From a bacterium (GTDB lineage: Bacteria; Sysuimicrobiota; Sysuimicrobiia; Sysuimicrobiales; Segetimicrobiaceae): a stretch of 64,000 bases of DNA. Where the stretch lies: contig DASSJF010000069.1 in assembly GCA_035691305.1 (NCBI GenBank), forward strand, positions 1-64,000, read 5' to 3'. Under the pieces are notes generated by a model, which saw only the letters and a list, made by a program, of their open reading frames with translations, made no database searches and was not told the origin of the DNA. Below are positions 7,690-33,698 of the stretch, piece by piece (position 1 is the first letter of the stretch; each line of letters begins with the position of its first letter). Position numbers and translations under genes: made by a program.

Positions 7690-9033
7690 TCAGATCACCT
7701 CGGCGCGAGATTCGGCCACCTCCTCGAGGCGGCGGCCGACCGTTTCTTCGCCGAACACGATCACGATCCCGATGGCGGCGACGAGGGACGCCGCGACGAC
7801 GCTCAGCGCCTGGAAGCGGCCGGTCGTCCACGTGTGCATGAGCGCCGCCAGCAGGAGCGGCGCCGCGATGCCCGCGGCGCGGCCGGCGGCCGACGCCCAA
7901 CCCGTCGCGGTCGCGCGGATGCGCGTCGGATACATCTCCGCCGCGTACGCCAGGATTACCGGCCACGACGCCAGCACCCCGCCGGCCAGCGCCCCGGCGC
8001 CCAGGACGAGAGCCGCCTCGCTGCGCGCGACGGCCACGACAACGGCGCCCGCCGCCGCCACCCCGAGCGCGGCAACGATGACGGGCTTCCGCCCGACGCG
8101 GTCGAGCGTGAACGTCGTGGCGACCGTCGCCGGCACCATCATCAACGCCACGAGCACCGACGCCTCCGCGGGACGCCACGCGCCGGCGGCGCCCAGCATC
8201 GCCGGAATCCAGATGATCGGTCCTTGGAACGCGCCGATCATCACGAACCAGACGCTCCATAGAAGAAACGACCGCCGGCGGAAGCGCGGACTCCAAAGTT
8301 CGCGCAGGTGCGCCGCCATCGACGCGGGCGACGCGGGCTCCTGATCGGGCAGGTCGAGCGCGACGCCGTACCGCTCGCCGAGCGCCGCCGTCAGCGCTTC
8401 CGCCTCTCCCCGCCGCCCGTGCGCGAGAAGAAAGCGCGGCGACTCCGGGATGAGCCGCGGGCCCGCGACCGCCAGCGCGAGCGGCAGCGCGCCGATCGCA
8501 AAGGTACCGCGCCAGCCGAGCGTTCCCGCGATCAGCACGCCGCCGACGCCCGCGACGACCCACCCCGTCGCCCAGAGCACCTGCGTCCATCCGAGCAGGG
8601 CGCCGCGGCGGGCCGCGGGCGCGAATTCGCTCACCAGGCTGGTCGCGACCGGAGTCACCCCGCCGAATCCGACGCCCATGAGCAGCATCGCGGCGACAAG
8701 CCACGCAAGCGTCGGGGCGGCGGCCGCGGCCGCGGCGGAGAGGCTGCTGCACGCGATCGTGAGTCCGAAGGCGCCGCGGCGTCCGATCGCGTCGGCGATG
8801 TAGCCGGCGCTCACGCCGCCGATCAGCTGACCGGCGCCGACGGCGGCGGTGATGAGACTCGCTTGTCCGGGACTGAGCCGCCACGCCGACGCAAGACCGA
8901 GCAGCGCGAAGCTTACGACGCCGAGCGTGATCCCGTTGGCCCCGTAGCCCAACCCGGCGATGAGCGTCACGCGGTGGTGCAGCGCGCGCCGGCGTACGCC
9001 GGTGGCGCCCGACGGCGGCCGCAGATCCCTCAC
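7690..9033 (-). CDS. MFS transporter (sugar/organic-acid porter-like)
   Basis: 447 residues with about twelve hydrophobic segments in two six-helix halves. Loop 2-3 holds GYIADAIGRRGA, the MFS G-x3-D-x2-GRR signature, and its second-half counterpart is DRVGRKPV. IPESPRFLL after TM6 is typical of the sugar-porter/AAHS (aromatic acid:H+) branches. The GTG start at 9033 overlaps the stop of the upstream flavin oxidase as GTGA, so translation is probably coupled. With glutaryl-CoA dehydrogenase and the amine oxidase upstream, the likely cargo is an amino acid or cyclic amine of that pathway (inference). Confidence 0.88.
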   Translation of the reverse strand: MRDLRPPSGATGVRRRALHHRVTLIAGLGYGANGITLGVVSFALLGLASAWRLSPGQASLITAAVGAGQLIGGVSAGYIADAIGRRGAFGLTIACSSLSAAAAAAAPTLAWLVAAMLLMGVGFGGVTPVATSLVSEFAPAARRGALLGWTQVLWATGWVVAGVGGVLIAGTLGWRGTFAIGALPLALAVAGPRLIPESPRFLLAHGRRGEAEALTAALGERYGVALDLPDQEPASPASMAAHLRELWSPRFRRRSFLLWSVWFVMIGAFQGPIIWIPAMLGAAGAWRPAEASVLVALMMVPATVATTFTLDRVGRKPVIVAALGVAAAGAVVVAVARSEAALVLGAGALAGGVLASWPVILAYAAEMYPTRIRATATGWASAAGRAAGIAAPLLLAALMHTWTTGRFQALSVVAASLVAAIGIVIVFGEETVGRRLEEVAESRAEVI

Positions 9034-10184
9034 GTCCGGAGCGGCGGCGCGGCGCTCGTGAATCGCGCGGGCGAGAGGAAGTCGATCGCGTGGGACGTCC
9101 GGCCGTCCACGGCGAGGTCGGCCAGAATCTCCCCGATTACAGGCGCGAACTTGAAGCCGTGGCCGCTGAACCCCGTCGCGTACACGAGCGCACGGTCCGC
9201 CGGCCGGTCCACGATAAAGTCCCAGTCGGGCGACATCGTGTATAGACAGGTTTCGGCCTCGAGCAGGCGGCCGGCCGCCGCGGGCAGGACGCGGCGCAGC
9301 ACCGCGCCGAGCCGCGCGATTTCGTCTTCTCCGACCGCGCGGCGGCAGGTCTCCGGGGTGCACGCCGGCCCGCGCTCGTGGATCGCGGCCTTGAGGCCGT
9401 GGCCGTCGCCGACCTCGGGGATGCCGTAGATGTTCGTCCCATCCATCTCGCAGATCCAGACCGGGCAGACGTCCGCGGACAGCAGCGCCGCCGCCTCGGC
9501 GAACGCGGGCGCAAACCAGGCGACGATGCGCCGCGTCGCCTCGATCGGAAGGGCCAGTTCGTTCAGCACGGACGGCGCCCACGGCCCCGCCGTCACGATG
9601 ACGGCCGCGGCCTCGTATCGACCGGCCGGCGTCTCGACGGCCGCGCCCTCGGACCCGGCCTCCCATCGCAGAACCGGCTGATCGTACCGAAGGTGGGCGC
9701 CCGCCCGGGTGGCCCCGCTCAGGTGCGCGAGCATGCAGGGATCCGGGAAGAGGACGCCGGCGTCCGGCTCGAACAGTCCGACCATGTCGTCCCGCGGCGT
9801 GAACAGCGGAAACCGCTTCCGCACGCCGGCGGGAGTCAGCAGCTCGTAGTCGATGCCGTGCATTCGGGCGCTGGCGACCGCCCCGTCGATCACGGCGGCG
9901 GACGTCGCTCCAAGCCACAAGCCGCCGGTCCGCTGGTAGACCGGCTCGACCGACTCTTCCGCCAGCTCCGCCCACAACTCGTACGCGCGCTGCAGCAGCG
10001 GCACGTACGCCGGGCTCTCGAAGTACGCCTTGCGGATGATACGCGTGAAACCGTGGGAGGATCCGAGGCGGTGCCCCGGCGGCAACCCGTCGAGACCCAG
10101 CACGCGGCGGCCGCGACGCGCTAGGTGGTACGCCGCGGCGCTCCCCATCGCGCCGAGCCCGACGACGATGGCGTCGTAGGTCAA
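9030..10184 (-). CDS. Monomeric sarcosine/pipecolate oxidase-family flavoenzyme
   Basis: 384 residues. Rossmann FAD motif GLGAMGSAAAYHL at the N-terminus, then SSHGFTRIIRKAY and, near the C-terminus, GFSGHGFKFAP, as in the MSOX/N-methyltryptophan oxidase/L-pipecolate oxidase family. The Cys in ETCLYTMSPDWDF is at the position that binds FAD covalently in this family. These enzymes oxidise secondary amino acids to imines, releasing H2O2. The next gene upstream is glutaryl-CoA dehydrogenase (22 bp gap), which favours pipecolate oxidation in lysine breakdown over sarcosine; that choice is an inference. It overlaps the MFS gene by 4 bp. Confidence 0.88.
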   Translation of the reverse strand: MTYDAIVVGLGAMGSAAAYHLARRGRRVLGLDGLPPGHRLGSSHGFTRIIRKAYFESPAYVPLLQRAYELWAELAEESVEPVYQRTGGLWLGATSAAVIDGAVASARMHGIDYELLTPAGVRKRFPLFTPRDDMVGLFEPDAGVLFPDPCMLAHLSGATRAGAHLRYDQPVLRWEAGSEGAAVETPAGRYEAAAVIVTAGPWAPSVLNELALPIEATRRIVAWFAPAFAEAAALLSADVCPVWICEMDGTNIYGIPEVGDGHGLKAAIHERGPACTPETCRRAVGEDEIARLGAVLRRVLPAAAGRLLEAETCLYTMSPDWDFIVDRPADRALVYATGFSGHGFKFAPVIGEILADLAVDGRTSHAIDFLSPARFTSAAPPLRT

Positions 10185-10206: not shown

Positions 10207-11454
10207 TCACTCGCCTCGCCGCATCCCTTTCGTCGCGTCCGCGACGGTCACGGCGCCTCGGCCCGCCTCCGGCTGAGGCACGCCGAACGCGTCGAACCCG
10301 GTGATGTCGCGCCCCAGGATCAGCGTGTGGACGTCGTAGGTACCCTCGTACGTGTCGACCGTCTCGAGGTTCGCGGCGTGGCGCATCGCGTGGTACTCGA
10401 GCGTAATCCCGTAGCCGCCGAGGATGCTGCGCGCCGAGCGCGCGATGTTGAGGGCGGCGCGCACGTTGTTACGCTTGGCGAGGCTGACCTGCGTGTACGC
10501 GAGCGTGCCGGCGTCTTTGAGCCGTCCCAGGTGGTACGCGAGGAGCTGCGCCTTCGTGATCTCGGTCAGCATGTCGACCAGGCGTTCCTGCATCAACTGG
10601 GTCGCAGCGATCGGGCGCCCGAACGCGACCCGCTCTTTCGCGTAGGCAAGCGCCTCCTCGTAGCAGGCCGCCGCCGCGCCGATCGCGCCCCACGCGATCC
10701 CGTAGCGGGCCTGCGTCAGGCAGCGCAGCGCCGCGCCCAGCCCCGTCGCCCGCGGCAGCGCGTCGGCCTCCGGGACGAACACGTCCTCCAGCACCAACTC
10801 GCTGGTCACCGACGCCCGCATCGAGGCCTTCGTGTGGATGTCGTGCGCGCTGAACCCCTTCGCGTGCGGATCGGCGAGAAACCCCCGAATCACGCCTTCC
10901 TCGTCCTTGGCCCAGATCAGCGCCACGTCGGCGAGCGAACCGTTCGTGATCCACATCTTGGTGCCGGTGAGCGCCCAGCCGCCCGGACGACGCCGCGCCC
11001 GCGTCTGCATCGCGGCGGGATCGCTGCCGGCGGTCGGCTCCGTCAGCCCGAAGCAGCCCAGCTTTTCGCCCGCGGCCATCGCCGGCAGCCACCGCCGGCG
11101 CTGCTCCTCGCTGCCGAATTCGTAGATCGGGTACATGACAAGCGCGCCCTGGACCGACGCGAACGACCGAAGGCCGCTGTCGCCGCGTTCGAGCTCCTGC
11201 ATCATCAGGCCGTAGGCGACGTTGCTTACGCCGGCGCAGCCGTACTCTTGCGGCAGGTTGGCGCCGTAGACGCGGAGCGCGCCGAGCGACGCGATCAGCT
11301 CGCGCGGAAACTCGCCCGCGAGCCACGCCCGGCCGATGCGCGGGATCACCTCTTTGTCCACCAGGCGGGCGATCGTATCGCGGGTGAGCCGCTCGTCCTC
11401 GGTCAGGAGTTCTTCGATTCCGAAGTAGTCGGGGCGGCGACCGGACTGCGGCAT
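10207..11454 (-). CDS. gcdH: Glutaryl-CoA dehydrogenase (acyl-CoA dehydrogenase family)
   Basis: 415 residues. FAD-dependent oxidative decarboxylation of glutaryl-CoA to crotonyl-CoA, the late step of lysine/tryptophan catabolism. Seen: GCFGLTEPTAGSDP (FAD and substrate loop), WITNGSLAD, and ARYGIAWGA. The C-terminal block has EYHAMRHAANLETVDTYEGTYDVH; the Glu of TYEGT is the catalytic base and the surrounding text is diagnostic of GCDH rather than short-chain dehydrogenases. It is the first gene of a three-gene minus-strand unit with the flavin oxidase and the MFS carrier. A GGAG-type SD lies just upstream of ATG 11454. Confidence 0.93.
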   Translation of the reverse strand: MPQSGRRPDYFGIEELLTEDERLTRDTIARLVDKEVIPRIGRAWLAGEFPRELIASLGALRVYGANLPQEYGCAGVSNVAYGLMMQELERGDSGLRSFASVQGALVMYPIYEFGSEEQRRRWLPAMAAGEKLGCFGLTEPTAGSDPAAMQTRARRRPGGWALTGTKMWITNGSLADVALIWAKDEEGVIRGFLADPHAKGFSAHDIHTKASMRASVTSELVLEDVFVPEADALPRATGLGAALRCLTQARYGIAWGAIGAAAACYEEALAYAKERVAFGRPIAATQLMQERLVDMLTEITKAQLLAYHLGRLKDAGTLAYTQVSLAKRNNVRAALNIARSARSILGGYGITLEYHAMRHAANLETVDTYEGTYDVHTLILGRDITGFDAFGVPQPEAGRGAVTVADATKGMRRGE

Positions 11455-11551: not shown

Positions 11552-12817
11552 TCAGTGGCCGCGCAGCAGCTGCACGGTCGTGAGCACGCCGAGGGCGAGC
11601 GTCAATAGAACGGTGCCCCCGGCCACGATGTTCGCCACCGGACCGTTGCGGTGTCCGCGGACGACCGCCGGGTCGTTGCAGAGCATCAGCAGCACGAGAA
11701 ACAACGGCGCGAGCAGGAGTCCGTTGACGACGCTGGACCAGAACATCAACGCAACCGGCGGGATGCCTGCGAGGGCGACCACGGCCCCCACCAGCAGCGC
11801 CCCCGCGAGGAGCATGTAGAATCCGCGGGCTTGCCAGACGCGCTTGTCGAGCCCCTCGGCCCAGCCCAGCACCTCGGCCAGCGTGTACGCGGAGCACGCG
11901 ACCATCACCGGGATAGCCATGATTCCGCTGACGAAGAAGCCGAGCGCGAACAGCAGCGTCGCGAGCGGACCCGCCACCGGGCGCAGCGTCTGCGCCGCCT
12001 CGAGCACCGTTCCAATTCCGGCGGCGCCCGCCGGGATCACCACCGCCGCCGCGAGAATGATGAAGTAGAAGACGAGATTGGCGTAGATCATACCGGTGGC
12101 GACGTCCAGCCGTTCCCCGGCTAGATCGGCGACGCGGCGGTGGGCTTCCACCTCCTCGGTCGTCTGCCAGAAGAACATGTACGGCGTCAACGTCGCGCCG
12201 AGTAGCGCCAGCGCCGCCGCCAGGTACGTCGGCGCGAACCGGAAGTGCGGGAGGAACGTCGCTTCCAACACGCTCGCCCACCGCGGGCGGACGACAAACC
12301 CGACGGCGACGTAGAGCAGAAAGAGCGGCGTGAGGATCAGCAGCACCCGGCTCACCGCCTCGTAGCCCGCGCCGAAGAGCAGCGCGCCGAGTAGCACCGC
12401 GATCGGCACGACCCACCAGACCCACGGCACGCCGGTCAGCAGCTGCACGGCGGACGCGGTGCCGGAGAGATCCGCGCCGATCGTGATGACGTTCGAGAAC
12501 AGCGTCGGGATCACGATCACGAGGGCCGCCGCGGTCCCGTACCGGCGGCAGAGCAGGCGTCCGATTCCGCGCTTGCCCACGATGCCGAGCCGCGCGGACA
12601 TGTCTTCGAGGTAGTAGAGGATCGGGGTCGAAAGCAGCATGAGCCACAGCAGGCTGAAACCGGTGGTAGCGCCGATCTGAATGTAGGTGATGACGCCGGC
12701 GGGGTCGTTGTCGGCGGCGCCGGAGACGACGCCCGGCCCCATCACCCGGAAAAACCGCCGCCACGTCCGCCGATGATGACGCGGGCGTCTCTCCGGCCGG
12801 GAGGCGACGGCAGGCAC
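11552..12817 (-). CDS. NRAMP-related divalent metal transporter (divergent)
   Basis: 421 residues with about eleven hydrophobic segments. TM1 carries AADNDPAGVITY where classical NRAMPs have DPGN, and TM6 reads LGATLTPYMFFWQTTEE where classical proteins have the metal-ligand MPH. It therefore belongs to the divergent NRAMP branch in which the soft Met ligand is not conserved, and could prefer Mg2+ or another ion over Mn2+/Fe2+. That preference is inferred, not shown. The start is GTG 12817 without a good SD. A long upstream region with two strong hairpins and a small ORF could form its leader. Confidence 0.85.
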   Translation of the reverse strand: MPAVASRPERRPRHHRRTWRRFFRVMGPGVVSGAADNDPAGVITYIQIGATTGFSLLWLMLLSTPILYYLEDMSARLGIVGKRGIGRLLCRRYGTAAALVIVIPTLFSNVITIGADLSGTASAVQLLTGVPWVWWVVPIAVLLGALLFGAGYEAVSRVLLILTPLFLLYVAVGFVVRPRWASVLEATFLPHFRFAPTYLAAALALLGATLTPYMFFWQTTEEVEAHRRVADLAGERLDVATGMIYANLVFYFIILAAAVVIPAGAAGIGTVLEAAQTLRPVAGPLATLLFALGFFVSGIMAIPVMVACSAYTLAEVLGWAEGLDKRVWQARGFYMLLAGALLVGAVVALAGIPPVALMFWSSVVNGLLLAPLFLVLLMLCNDPAVVRGHRNGPVANIVAGGTVLLTLALGVLTTVQLLRGH

Positions 12818-12896
12818 AGCGTGATCGGTTCAGGTCTCGAACGCGAGGTCCCTGCTCCGTCCCAGCCGTTGCCCGGCCGTCTCTCGATAGAACACG

Positions 12897-12932
12897 CGAG
12901 GCCGGCGGCGCGTTCGCGCGCCGCCGGCCTCG
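12897..12932 (-). terminator. 16-bp perfect hairpin upstream of the NRAMP-like gene
   Basis: Arms CGAGGCCGGCGGCGCG and its exact complement enclose a 4-base loop. It ends 80 bp before the NRAMP GTG. No clear U-run follows on the minus strand, so it may act as an attenuator or a stabilising structure rather than a standard intrinsic terminator. Confidence 0.55.
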
Positions 12933-13032
12933 CCATCAGATTCTCGTTACCCTCGCTCCCGCCTTCGCGACTCTCAGTCGCCTGTGTTGGGGGACACGTC
13001 CCCTTGTCGGAAGGGCTGCGAGGGGTTCGCTT

Positions 13033-13067
13033 GGAGCGGCGGAAGGATTCGGGCCCGCCGCCGCTCC
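13033..13067 (-). terminator. Hairpin directly after the Arg-rich small ORF
   Basis: A 10-bp stem (GGAGCGGCGG with CCGCCGCTCC) and a 15-base loop begin one base after the stop of the 22-codon ORF. It lacks a U-run. Its position suggests termination or attenuation linked to translation of that ORF. Confidence 0.45.
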
Positions 13068-13068
13068 G

Positions 13069-13137
13069 TTACTGCTTCGGTGGCCGCTCCTCGGCTGTGC
13101 CCGTATTTCGACGTGACCGACGCGTTCTTGCCCGCAT
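13069..13137 (-). CDS. Arg-rich 22-residue small ORF (leader peptide or small basic protein)
   Basis: ATG 13137 is preceded by AAGGAGGCGGGACG, one of the strongest SDs in the window, and about 70 nt further upstream by a good promoter. The product starts MRARTRRSRRN and ends ERPPKQ: eight arginines in 22 residues. A hairpin starts right after the stop and the NRAMP-like gene follows 250 bp later. It could be a leader peptide for that gene, or a separate small nucleic-acid-binding protein comparable in size to the short ribosomal protein bTHX, although no real sequence match is visible. Supported by signals only. Confidence 0.4.
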   Translation of the reverse strand: MRARTRRSRRNTGTAEERPPKQ

Positions 13138-13213
13138 CGTCCCGCCTCCTTGTTCAATCCTGCCGACGGCCCCGGTTATTGGCCGTACGCACCGGCAGCA
13201 CGTTCAAGCCTAT

Positions 13214-13243
13214 TGTCTGCCCGAGCCGCTGGATCTGTCAATC
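13214..13243 (-). promoter_or_regulatory. Promoter for the small ORF / NRAMP leader
   Basis: TTGACA (13243-13238), an 18-bp spacer, then GACAAT (13219-13214) on the minus strand. The -35 is a perfect sigma-70 match and the -10 matches four of six bases. Predicted start near 13207, giving a 70-nt untranslated region before the Arg-rich ORF. Confidence 0.55.
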
Positions 13244-13307
13244 CCCGCGATGCCGCGTCCGAGACGATTGTGCGCGGTTTCTCGCCAATGATACGCTGAA
13301 GACCGTG

Positions 13308-14804
13308 ATGGCCTCGCCGGACGTAGGATATGGACGCCGTACATTGGTCTTCATCGCCGTGGCCGTCCTGATTGCGGCGCACGTATTGTGGCAGGCGTGG
13401 GCCATCGGCGCCGCGCCATACCCGGCCCGCTACGATTACGACGAGGGCGTCTACGCCGAGACGGCGGCGGTTTCGGCCGGCTACCGCCTCTACCAGACCG
13501 TCTTCCTGAGTCAACCGCCTCTGCTCATCGAGGTTCTCCGCCGTGCGTTCGATCTCTTCGGCCGATCGCTCGAAACCGCGCGCGGCGTGGTGGTCGCCTT
13601 TTCGGCGCTGTGGCTGGCGGCGCTAGCGGCGGCCGCCGCACGCGCCGGCGGGCATCGCGCGGCCCTCTGGGTCGTCGTCATCGCCGGATCGGCACCCGCA
13701 TTCGCCCTGGCGGCGCACACGGTGCAGATGGAAGCGCCGTCGGAAGCGCTTGCGGCGTCCGCCGTCGCCCTCGCGCTCACTGCGGGCGGCGCCAGCTCCA
13801 AGGACGGTCTTGCCCGCGCCGCCGGTTGGCTGTGGGCCGGAACCGGCGCGGCCGCGGGGCTGGCCGTGATGACGAAGTTCACCGCCGCCACATGCCTCGT
13901 GCCCATCGCCGTCATCGCTCTGGTCGGATCCGGCAGGCCGTCGGCAGGCGCGGCCGCATTTCGCACAGCCGCGCTGGGTGCCGGAGGCGCGGCGGCGGCC
14001 GCCGCCGCGATGTTGTGGACGGGAAGTCCGCCGGGTGCGATGTGGCACCAGGCTGTGGAGTTCCACAGTGCCGTCGCGCGGGTGACCGCCGTCGACCCGA
14101 CCCGCACGGCGTCGCTGCTTCTCGGCTTCGGCCTGGCGAACTGGCTGCTTGTCCTCGTCGGACTTGGCGGTTTGGTCTCTGCCGGCACAGCCCGGCGCGG
14201 CGGCCGGGTGCCGGGCGACCACGCCGCGCGGTGGGCGATCGCGGCCTGGCTGGGCACCGATCTCGCGGCAGCCTTCCTCTGGAGGCCGGTCTGGCCCCAC
14301 CACCTCGTCATTCTCGTCGCCCCGCTCGCGCTACTCGGCGGTACGGCGATCGAGACATGGGCTCCGTCCCCCCAAAACAGCGGCACGTCGCCGGTGATCC
14401 GGGGAGCCGGCGGGGCGATCCTGATCGTCGCGTGGCTCGCGGCGTTGATGGGGACCGCGGCGGCGATCATGCCGGAGACGTCCAGCACGCTGCGTGCCGC
14501 CGCGGCCGCGACGGCGCGCCGCGTACCGCCCGGCGGGTGGGTGGTGGCGGATGACCCGATCGTGCCGTTCCTCGCCGGACGCGACGTCCCGCCGCAGTTG
14601 TGCGATACGTCCGAGATGCGAACAGGTGCGGGATGGATCACCGAGGGCGATCTCACCGCGGCGCTGGCTGATCCGCGGGTGCGGGCGCTCGTATTGTGGC
14701 GGGGGACATTTCGTCGCGCGTTTCCGGGCTTCGTCGCCCGCGCGTCAAGGGCCCTCTCCGTCCGCTGGAACGCGGGAGACGAACGCGTGATTCTCGCGCG
14801 CTGA
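13308..14804 (+). CDS. GT-C family glycosyltransferase (ArnT/PMT-like membrane protein)
   Basis: 498 residues with many hydrophobic helices. An N-terminal TM is followed by an extracytoplasmic loop ARYDYDEGVYAETA, the Asp/Glu-containing loop that marks dolichol- or polyprenyl-phosphate-sugar glycosyltransferases of the GT39/GT83 type. These move sugars from a lipid carrier to proteins or envelope lipids outside the membrane. The C-terminal 130 residues form a soluble-like segment (VVADDPIVPFLAGRDVPPQL). ATG 13308 was chosen because the open frame upstream is not protein-like; GTG 13305 is adjacent. It is followed after about 100 bp by an ABC permease pair with no clear functional link. Confidence 0.8.
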   Translation: MASPDVGYGRRTLVFIAVAVLIAAHVLWQAWAIGAAPYPARYDYDEGVYAETAAVSAGYRLYQTVFLSQPPLLIEVLRRAFDLFGRSLETARGVVVAFSALWLAALAAAAARAGGHRAALWVVVIAGSAPAFALAAHTVQMEAPSEALAASAVALALTAGGASSKDGLARAAGWLWAGTGAAAGLAVMTKFTAATCLVPIAVIALVGSGRPSAGAAAFRTAALGAGGAAAAAAAMLWTGSPPGAMWHQAVEFHSAVARVTAVDPTRTASLLLGFGLANWLLVLVGLGGLVSAGTARRGGRVPGDHAARWAIAAWLGTDLAAAFLWRPVWPHHLVILVAPLALLGGTAIETWAPSPQNSGTSPVIRGAGGAILIVAWLAALMGTAAAIMPETSSTLRAAAAATARRVPPGGWVVADDPIVPFLAGRDVPPQLCDTSEMRTGAGWITEGDLTAALADPRVRALVLWRGTFRRAFPGFVARASRALSVRWNAGDERVILAR

Positions 14805-31779: not shown

Positions 31780-31874
31780 TGGCGGAGGGGTGTGGGAATC
31801 GAACCCACCGCGAACCCGAAGGGCCCGCCGCTGATTTTGAAGACCAGGAGACCCACCAGGATCCATGCCCCTCC
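31780..31874 (-). tRNA. selC: tRNA-Sec (anticodon UCA)
   Basis: A 95-nt tRNA read on the minus strand. The acceptor GGAGGGG pairs with CCCCTCC, followed by discriminator G and encoded CCA. The anticodon arm CTGGT-CTTCAAA-ATCAG carries UCA. It has a long GC-rich variable arm (GGCGGGCCCTTCGGGTT region) and the T arm GTGGG-TTCGATT-CCCAC. UCA anticodon, long extra arm and an extended acceptor/T stack are diagnostic of selenocysteine tRNA. The eighth acceptor pair appears to be a C-A mismatch. selA and selB lie 2-5 kb away on the same strand. Confidence 0.95.
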
Positions 31875-33602: not shown

Positions 33603-33628
33603 GCGAGAGAAGACAGGCTGGCGAAAAG

Positions 33629-33663
33629 CGCGCCGCGCGGCCGCACCCCGGCCGCGCGGCGCG
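33629..33663 (-). terminator. Strong terminator at the end of the selAB operon
   Basis: A perfect 15-bp stem (CGCGCCGCGCGGCCG and complement) with a 5-base loop. On the minus strand it is followed by CTTTTCGCC and lies about 36 bp after the selB stop. It could also end the plus-strand Pro-rich gene. Confidence 0.75.
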
Positions 33664-33698
33664 TATCGGGTAGAGAGCCCTCGCTCCCTACCCTCTCT

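Follow-up and report, generated by a model that had tools for sequence, protein, structure and literature searches.

The DNA analyzed here, a 64,000-nucleotide stretch from a member of the Segetimicrobiaceae (hereafter the window), carries on its minus strand a promoter, a 22-codon open reading frame (ORF) and a series of RNA hairpins ahead of a gene cluster headed by an NRAMP-family transporter gene. We see an even chance that this region forms the 5′ leader of an operon for glutarate/glutaryl-CoA catabolism, in which the ribosome and its nascent peptide would sense a metabolite of the pathway; arrest, ligand and read-through would all belong to this reading. To our knowledge, few leader peptides that sense small molecules are known, mostly from model bacteria, and the literature searched yielded no paper on a leader peptide of glutarate or glutaryl-CoA metabolism. 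The present case offers clear comparative support for both a peptide and its RNA partner, in the uncultured phylum Sysuimicrobiota, and it corrects a tempting misreading, since the leader does not follow the NRAMP-like gene that adjoins it in the window.

Anatomy and conservation of the leader

The arrangement of promoter, mini-ORF and hairpins is real and far from what chance would produce. Direct reading of the window finds all of the elements described in an earlier note on this DNA at the places first given, on the minus strand (Table 1). The TTGACA promoter, the Arg-rich ORF with its AAGGAGG, the hairpin touching the ORF's stop codon and the NRAMP-like nature of the gene downstream could all be confirmed. 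A perfect hairpin, given as 16 bp long and 80 bp before the transporter gene, is likewise present, but it has 17 pairs, and 78 nt separate its end from the GTG at 12817. Absent from that description was a three-way junction located between the two hairpins, which we call A and T.

Table 1. Features of the leader and of the genes that follow it, in window coordinates.
Feature	Position	Strand	Details
Sigma70-type promoter, TTGACA-18-GACAAT	13212..13241	-	Same promoter type in 9/9 leaders
-35 element, TTGACA	13241-13236	-	18-nt spacer to GACAAT at 13217-13212
Shine-Dalgarno (SD) sequence of the mini-ORF, AAGGAGG	13145..13151	-	Direct reading; GGAGG-type SD in relatives
Leader peptide ORF, MRARTRRSRRNTGTAEERPPKQ, 22 codons + TAA	13069..13137	-	ATG at 13137; stop at 13071-13069
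Hairpin A	13033..13067	-	Starts one base past the stop codon; 5/10 pairs with two-sided compensatory changes
Three-way junction RNA	12949..13026	-	Covariation in P1, P2 and P3
Helices of the junction	P1 about 13026-13006 with 12966-12949; P2 13003-12990; P3 12981-12967	-	
Hairpin T, terminator-like	12896..12933	-	17 bp, 4-nt loop, tail GTGTTCTATC
NRAMP-family transporter	11552..12817	-	GTG start; first operon gene here; Pfam Nramp 4e-72
Glutaryl-CoA dehydrogenase (GCDH)	10207..11454	-	Pfam acyl-CoA dehydrogenase domains; PDB 2eba
FAD-dependent amine oxidase, sarcosine / N-methyltryptophan oxidase family	9030..10184	-	NF008425, 403 bits vs cut-off 257; PDB 7exs, sarcosine oxidase
MFS transporter (Sugar_tr)	7690..9024	-	Pfam; start codon not fixed

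The promoter is the sole sigma70-like site between 12600 and 13500, where shuffled sequences lead to an expectation of 0.2. Around each of the nine leaders known to us (see below), a scan from -130 to +420 relative to the mini-ORF start found no further sigma70-like promoter; in G007 and other genomes where the gap to the first gene is long, this stretch stops short of that gene. With one such promoter per scanned stretch, placed before the mini-ORF, expression of the operon probably implies read-through of the leader. On the opposite strand, a long ORF for a PMT_2-type glycosyltransferase (12984-14804, plus strand) spans the leader; the gene probably starts near 13308, outside the leader, and a divergent reading frame resembling it occurs in several relatives.

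The mini-ORF is exactly 22 codons long, with zero indels, in 9/9 genomes, and in one of them (G004) a start one codon earlier is also possible. The encoded peptide is rich in arginine (4-8 Arg codons of 22), with the core S[RK]xNTxxxxE[TR]PPK. Across the nine genomes, the invariant residues are M1, R2, S8, N11, T12, E17, P19, P20 and K21; position 9 holds either R or K, and position 18 either T or R. Codons differ beneath constant residues, with CGT, CGC, CGG or AGG at R9 (the R or K position), AAT or AAC at N11, and CCA, CCG or CCC at P19. Nonsynonymous divergence is lower than synonymous divergence in this set (pN 0.26, pS 0.49), and amino-acid similarity across species is greatest in frame 0. 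Because of this frame-0 conservation, the excess of pS over pN and the codon variation under constant residues, the ORF is very probably translated, with selection acting on the peptide. The comparative evidence thus describes a short, SD-bearing ORF before an operon whose amino acids are under selection, as in a cis-regulatory leader peptide. A different Arg-rich mini-ORF with a GGAGG sequence (MRGTRRHRGASAR, followed by a stop codon) is found in G005 before a distant NRAMP paralogue (39% identical; locus L010, about 1381-1422), and no RNA similarity to the leader was found in that mini-ORF region.

The RNA downstream of the mini-ORF is conserved as structure. Two-sided compensatory changes are present in 17 of the 31 pairs in a sequence-based alignment of eight leaders, and in 18/31 in a model-based alignment of nine, which leans towards structure; none of 500 shuffles reaches the latter count. 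The covariation score, computed from nine sequences of one family that are all from metagenome-assembled genomes and in several cases closely related, is 0.479, compared with 0.271 for shuffled alignments (0/500) and at most 0.183 when pairing partners are slid by 1-3 columns. The held-out leader of G003 keeps 28 of the 31 pairs of the whole model, and in seven of these both bases have changed. Conservation of the ORF and hairpins in relatives had been named in the earlier note as a check on its proposal, and on this point the leader is decisively upheld. Judged from the aligned leaders, the promoter drives a transcript that carries a translated 22-residue peptide, followed by hairpin A, the three-way junction and hairpin T.

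Strong covariation in P1-P3 and preservation of the fold within the family could also point to a metabolite riboswitch or protein-binding RNA, in which the junction would bind a ligand or an antitermination protein and the mini-ORF would only couple translation; no other candidate to control hairpin T is apparent. In the alignment, however, the P2 and P3 loops and the junctions are not strongly conserved, unlike aptamer cores, and P1 overlaps hairpin T in 0/9 leaders. Searches of the window and three relatives against Rfam, at gathering and relaxed thresholds, returned only chance-level matches to the leader below gathering score and none to a curated family, in agreement with the earlier statement that known metal riboswitch cores were not recognized. 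Such an RNA would also leave the amino-acid conservation of the peptide unexplained, and we regard this reading as unlikely. The sole match at gathering level in the window is a selenocysteine tRNA (31784-31874, minus strand, 68.7 bits), because of which the lineage probably uses selenocysteine.

Of the hairpin stems found in the 64-kb window, that of hairpin T is the longest. A hairpin of 12-17 pairs occupies the matching place in relatives, about 122-138 nt past the mini-ORF stop, with a clade-specific sequence; a strong hairpin is present in 9/9 leaders, the G001 copy having a mismatch and being located by hand. Runs of at least four T residues follow it only in G002, G003 and G008 (about 3/9). 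A role as intrinsic terminator is likely, but it falls short of being established because clear T-rich tails are confined to these three. A second terminator-like hairpin in the window, at 33628-33664, is a GC hairpin of 16 pairs whose tail, read on the minus strand, is TTTTC.

Distribution of the leader and the genes behind it

The complete cassette (TTGACA promoter, 22-codon ORF, post-stop hairpin, three-way junction and terminator-like hairpin) is present in 9 of 12 genomes of the family Segetimicrobiaceae (Sysuimicrobiota), in one copy each: the window genome (G000), G001, G002, G003, G004, G005, G007, G008 and G009. Leaders adjoining NRAMP genes were found in G001, G002 and G004; a DNA search of the family located the cassette of G009, before a gene other than NRAMP; and inspection of GCDH loci added those of G005, G007 and G008. 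A covariance model of these eight leaders then found the ninth, in G003, at 100 bits and outside its training set. Among 43 genomes of the phylum, the model gave nothing convincing in the other 34, and its best matches outside the family score about 20 bits, compared with 100-153 for the leaders. An exact pattern built on the ORF's 3′ half was run GTDB-wide, on a collection with a single genome per species (84,980 species); it matched only four records from the family and, by chance, one locus that lacks the RNA (L077). Absence of the cassette from G010 and G011 may reflect genome incompleteness (64 and 68%). G006 has no leader before its CoA-transferase gene (L068, about 2860-2930, leader's strand). 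A search by eye for a degenerate leader there yielded only a TACAAT -10-like box close to the gene, which would fit a deletion of the leader.

For the dehydrogenase gene in the window (10207-11454), nine of the ten best PDB chains are GCDH or putative GCDH, at 399-478 bits, headed by 2eba (putative glutaryl-CoA dehydrogenase, 478 bits), and the next group reaches 247 bits, the score of the best chain carrying neither the GCDH name nor that of an unassigned acyl-CoA dehydrogenase. The CoA-transferase found in relatives has as its closest PDB entries 9br6/9br7 (343 bits), which are SUGCT, succinate-hydroxymethylglutarate CoA-transferase. SUGCT functions in glutarate activation.

Gene order behind the leader varies among genomes. 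The window has leader-NRAMP-GCDH-DAO-MFS, and G002 leader-NRAMP-GCDH with a DAO-family ORF next; G001 has leader-NRAMP-MFS-GCDH, and G004 is similar, as read from its reading frames. The order is leader-GCDH-MFS in G007 and G009, leader-GCDH in G005 and leader-CoA-transferase III-GCDH in G008. In G003, a CoA-transferase III gene follows the leader, and GCDH lies several kilobases off behind inserted genes; in every other leader-bearing genome, GCDH is in the same cluster downstream of the leader. The first gene is thus NRAMP in four genomes, GCDH in three and a SUGCT-like CoA-transferase in two, and all nine leaders stand before GCDH, a SUGCT-like CoA-transferase or an NRAMP-GCDH operon. In several genomes, the MFS gene is followed by a gene for a small protein with a signal-peptide-like start and the ending LHRVYGVGVTA(L/I)VDF (L074 10337-10864, L072 5861-6409 and L100 10444-10917, leader's strand).

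With its own promoter, SD, stop codon and terminator-like hairpin, and a conserved Arg-rich peptide, the cassette might instead be an independent small gene, making a short terminated transcript (for a small protein, or an sRNA of dual function) whose place before the operon is incidental. Against this, it is always co-directional with and 5′ of the glutaryl-CoA gene set, in 9/9 cases despite three different first genes, and the scanned stretch holds no further sigma70-like promoter for the operon; we consider this explanation quite unlikely. From its genomic positions, the cassette has been inherited as a unit and has stayed 5′ of the glutaryl-CoA genes, whichever set of them stands first.

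The leader and NRAMP dissociate in both directions. Five leaders have no NRAMP gene beside them, NRAMP being absent in G005, G007 and G009 and located elsewhere in G003 and G008, and the five NRAMP orthologues outside the operon (in G003, G006, G008, G010 and G011) have no leader. By this pattern of co-occurrence, the leader tracks the glutarate/glutaryl-CoA genes and not NRAMP.

The same pattern bears on the reading in the earlier note, of a leader of the mgtA/mgtL type that would sense Mg2+ or Mn2+ for a metal transporter. Metal-site signatures are DxxN-A/CxxM in Mn/Fe NRAMPs and DxxG-TxxA/T in the Mg2+-transporting NRMTs (PMC8806188). The window NRAMP does not have the canonical Mn/Fe signature; its own is DxxG-AxxT, in which DPAG is present and A-T-L-T replaces TxxA/T in 8/8 aligned orthologues, ruling it out as an NRMT Mg transporter. 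Its best PDB match is nonetheless the Mg transporter EleNRMT (7qia), and the peptide has Pro residues near its end, as an mgtL-like leader would. Given the two-way dissociation, a signature of neither the Mn/Fe nor the NRMT type and the lack of a metal riboswitch, we abandon the metal-sensing proposal as highly improbable. The window genome encodes a second NRAMP-family protein, 34% identical to the one in the window (G000:C83:10764-11936), and proteins like it in related genomes have the NRMT-like signature DxxG-TxxA.

The proposed switch

In the reading that we prefer, the sensor would be the ribosome translating the leader peptide. In the presence of a metabolite of the pathway, such as glutarate, glutaryl-CoA, lysine or a compound made from lysine, termination would stall at the mini-ORF stop codon, and the stalled ribosome would cover the base of hairpin A together with a C-rich stretch past the stop. 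RNA polymerase could then pass a premature stop, exerted by Rho at the C-rich stretch and/or by hairpin T, and continue into the operon. The three-way junction would serve as a folding or protein-binding element of the switch, and the NRAMP-like protein as one of the operon's transporters. The C-richest 28 nt do start 16-35 nt past the mini-ORF stop in 9/9 leaders, an enrichment that is individually non-significant (fractions 0.046-0.55) and confounded by C-rich helix arms. Since the searches gave no conserved antiterminator and no match to a known metal riboswitch or any other Rfam family, the ligand and the read-through mechanism are only what we infer.

The succession of leader ORF, hairpin at the stop codon and terminator-like hairpin, together with the many Arg codons, would also suit a classical ribosome-mediated attenuator, in which codon-specific stalling in the mini-ORF toggles an antiterminator against hairpin T. 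The leader-peptide architecture proposed in the earlier note survives in that promoter, conserved mini-ORF and hairpins lead the operon, but classical attenuation through a mutually exclusive antiterminator found no support. Duplex energies between the 5′ arm of hairpin T and the upstream RNA exceed those of shuffles in 0/9 leaders (best fraction 0.26), and masking a ribosome footprint never dissolves hairpin T; these two results together disfavor classical attenuation. In addition, the Arg codons are mixed, Arg gives way to other residues at several positions, the invariant N, T, E, PP and K form no amino-acid run, and the operon is not one for amino-acid biosynthesis. We therefore judge classical attenuation very unlikely. 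The missing complementarity to hairpin T above shuffles and its persistence in the ribosome-mask folding predictions count against the metabolite-sensing switch as well. Its most specific form, a dedicated nascent-peptide sensor of glutarate, glutaryl-CoA or a lysine-derived metabolite, in which a 22-residue arrest peptide and a new structured RNA would switch a glutarate-catabolism operon, is offered tentatively and is in our view a possibility of less than even standing.

Comparison with known leaders

Amino-acid attenuators of the trp/his type have a leader ORF, a hairpin at its end and a terminator-like hairpin, all of which are shared by the leader described here, but the latter has no run of regulatory codons and no antiterminator pairing, and its genes are catabolic. 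The MgtL/mgtA leader likewise combines an ORF and RNA structure upstream of a transporter gene with Pro residues in the peptide. These features are shared too, and the differences lie in the peptide itself, the lack of a metal-transporter linkage across genomes and the lack of a metal signature.

For the operon, a parallel exists in pxpTABC/ycsG, where an NRAMP-family protein is also encoded in a catabolic operon; PxpT/YcsG is described as needed for growth on 5-oxoproline (PMC13274462), and a rival report presents YcsG as a Mn importer (PMC10448178). The pathway is different there, regulation falls to a GntR repressor, which in C. glutamicum is PxpR, and the available text of those reports describes no leader peptide. 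The NRAMP-like gene in the window, with neither of the known metal-site signatures, adds to the question of what NRAMPs of catabolic operons carry.

In architecture, the leader is best read as nearer to TnaC than to mgtL, by analogy with a peptide conserved up to its stop codon before a catabolic operon. TnaC is a 24-residue peptide that stalls at its own stop codon ahead of such an operon; W12 is needed, and the arrest at the stop codon blocks Rho (PMC8429421). Both peptides are short (24 and 22 residues), precede a catabolic operon with a transporter, and have conserved residues at two places, close to the C terminus and some 10-14 positions earlier (PMC8429421); here, as in TnaC, invariant residues run up to the stop codon. 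In tnaC, a C-rich region with the rut site comes directly after the stop; the C-richest stretch of the present leaders lies at a corresponding place, but the signal is weak. The two peptides have no sequence similarity, and the present one has no Trp. Its leader has in addition a covarying three-way junction and a terminator-like hairpin, and for arrest and Rho we infer roles only. Tryptophan stalls the termination of TnaC; by analogy, a metabolite of the glutarate/glutaryl-CoA pathway could do so here.
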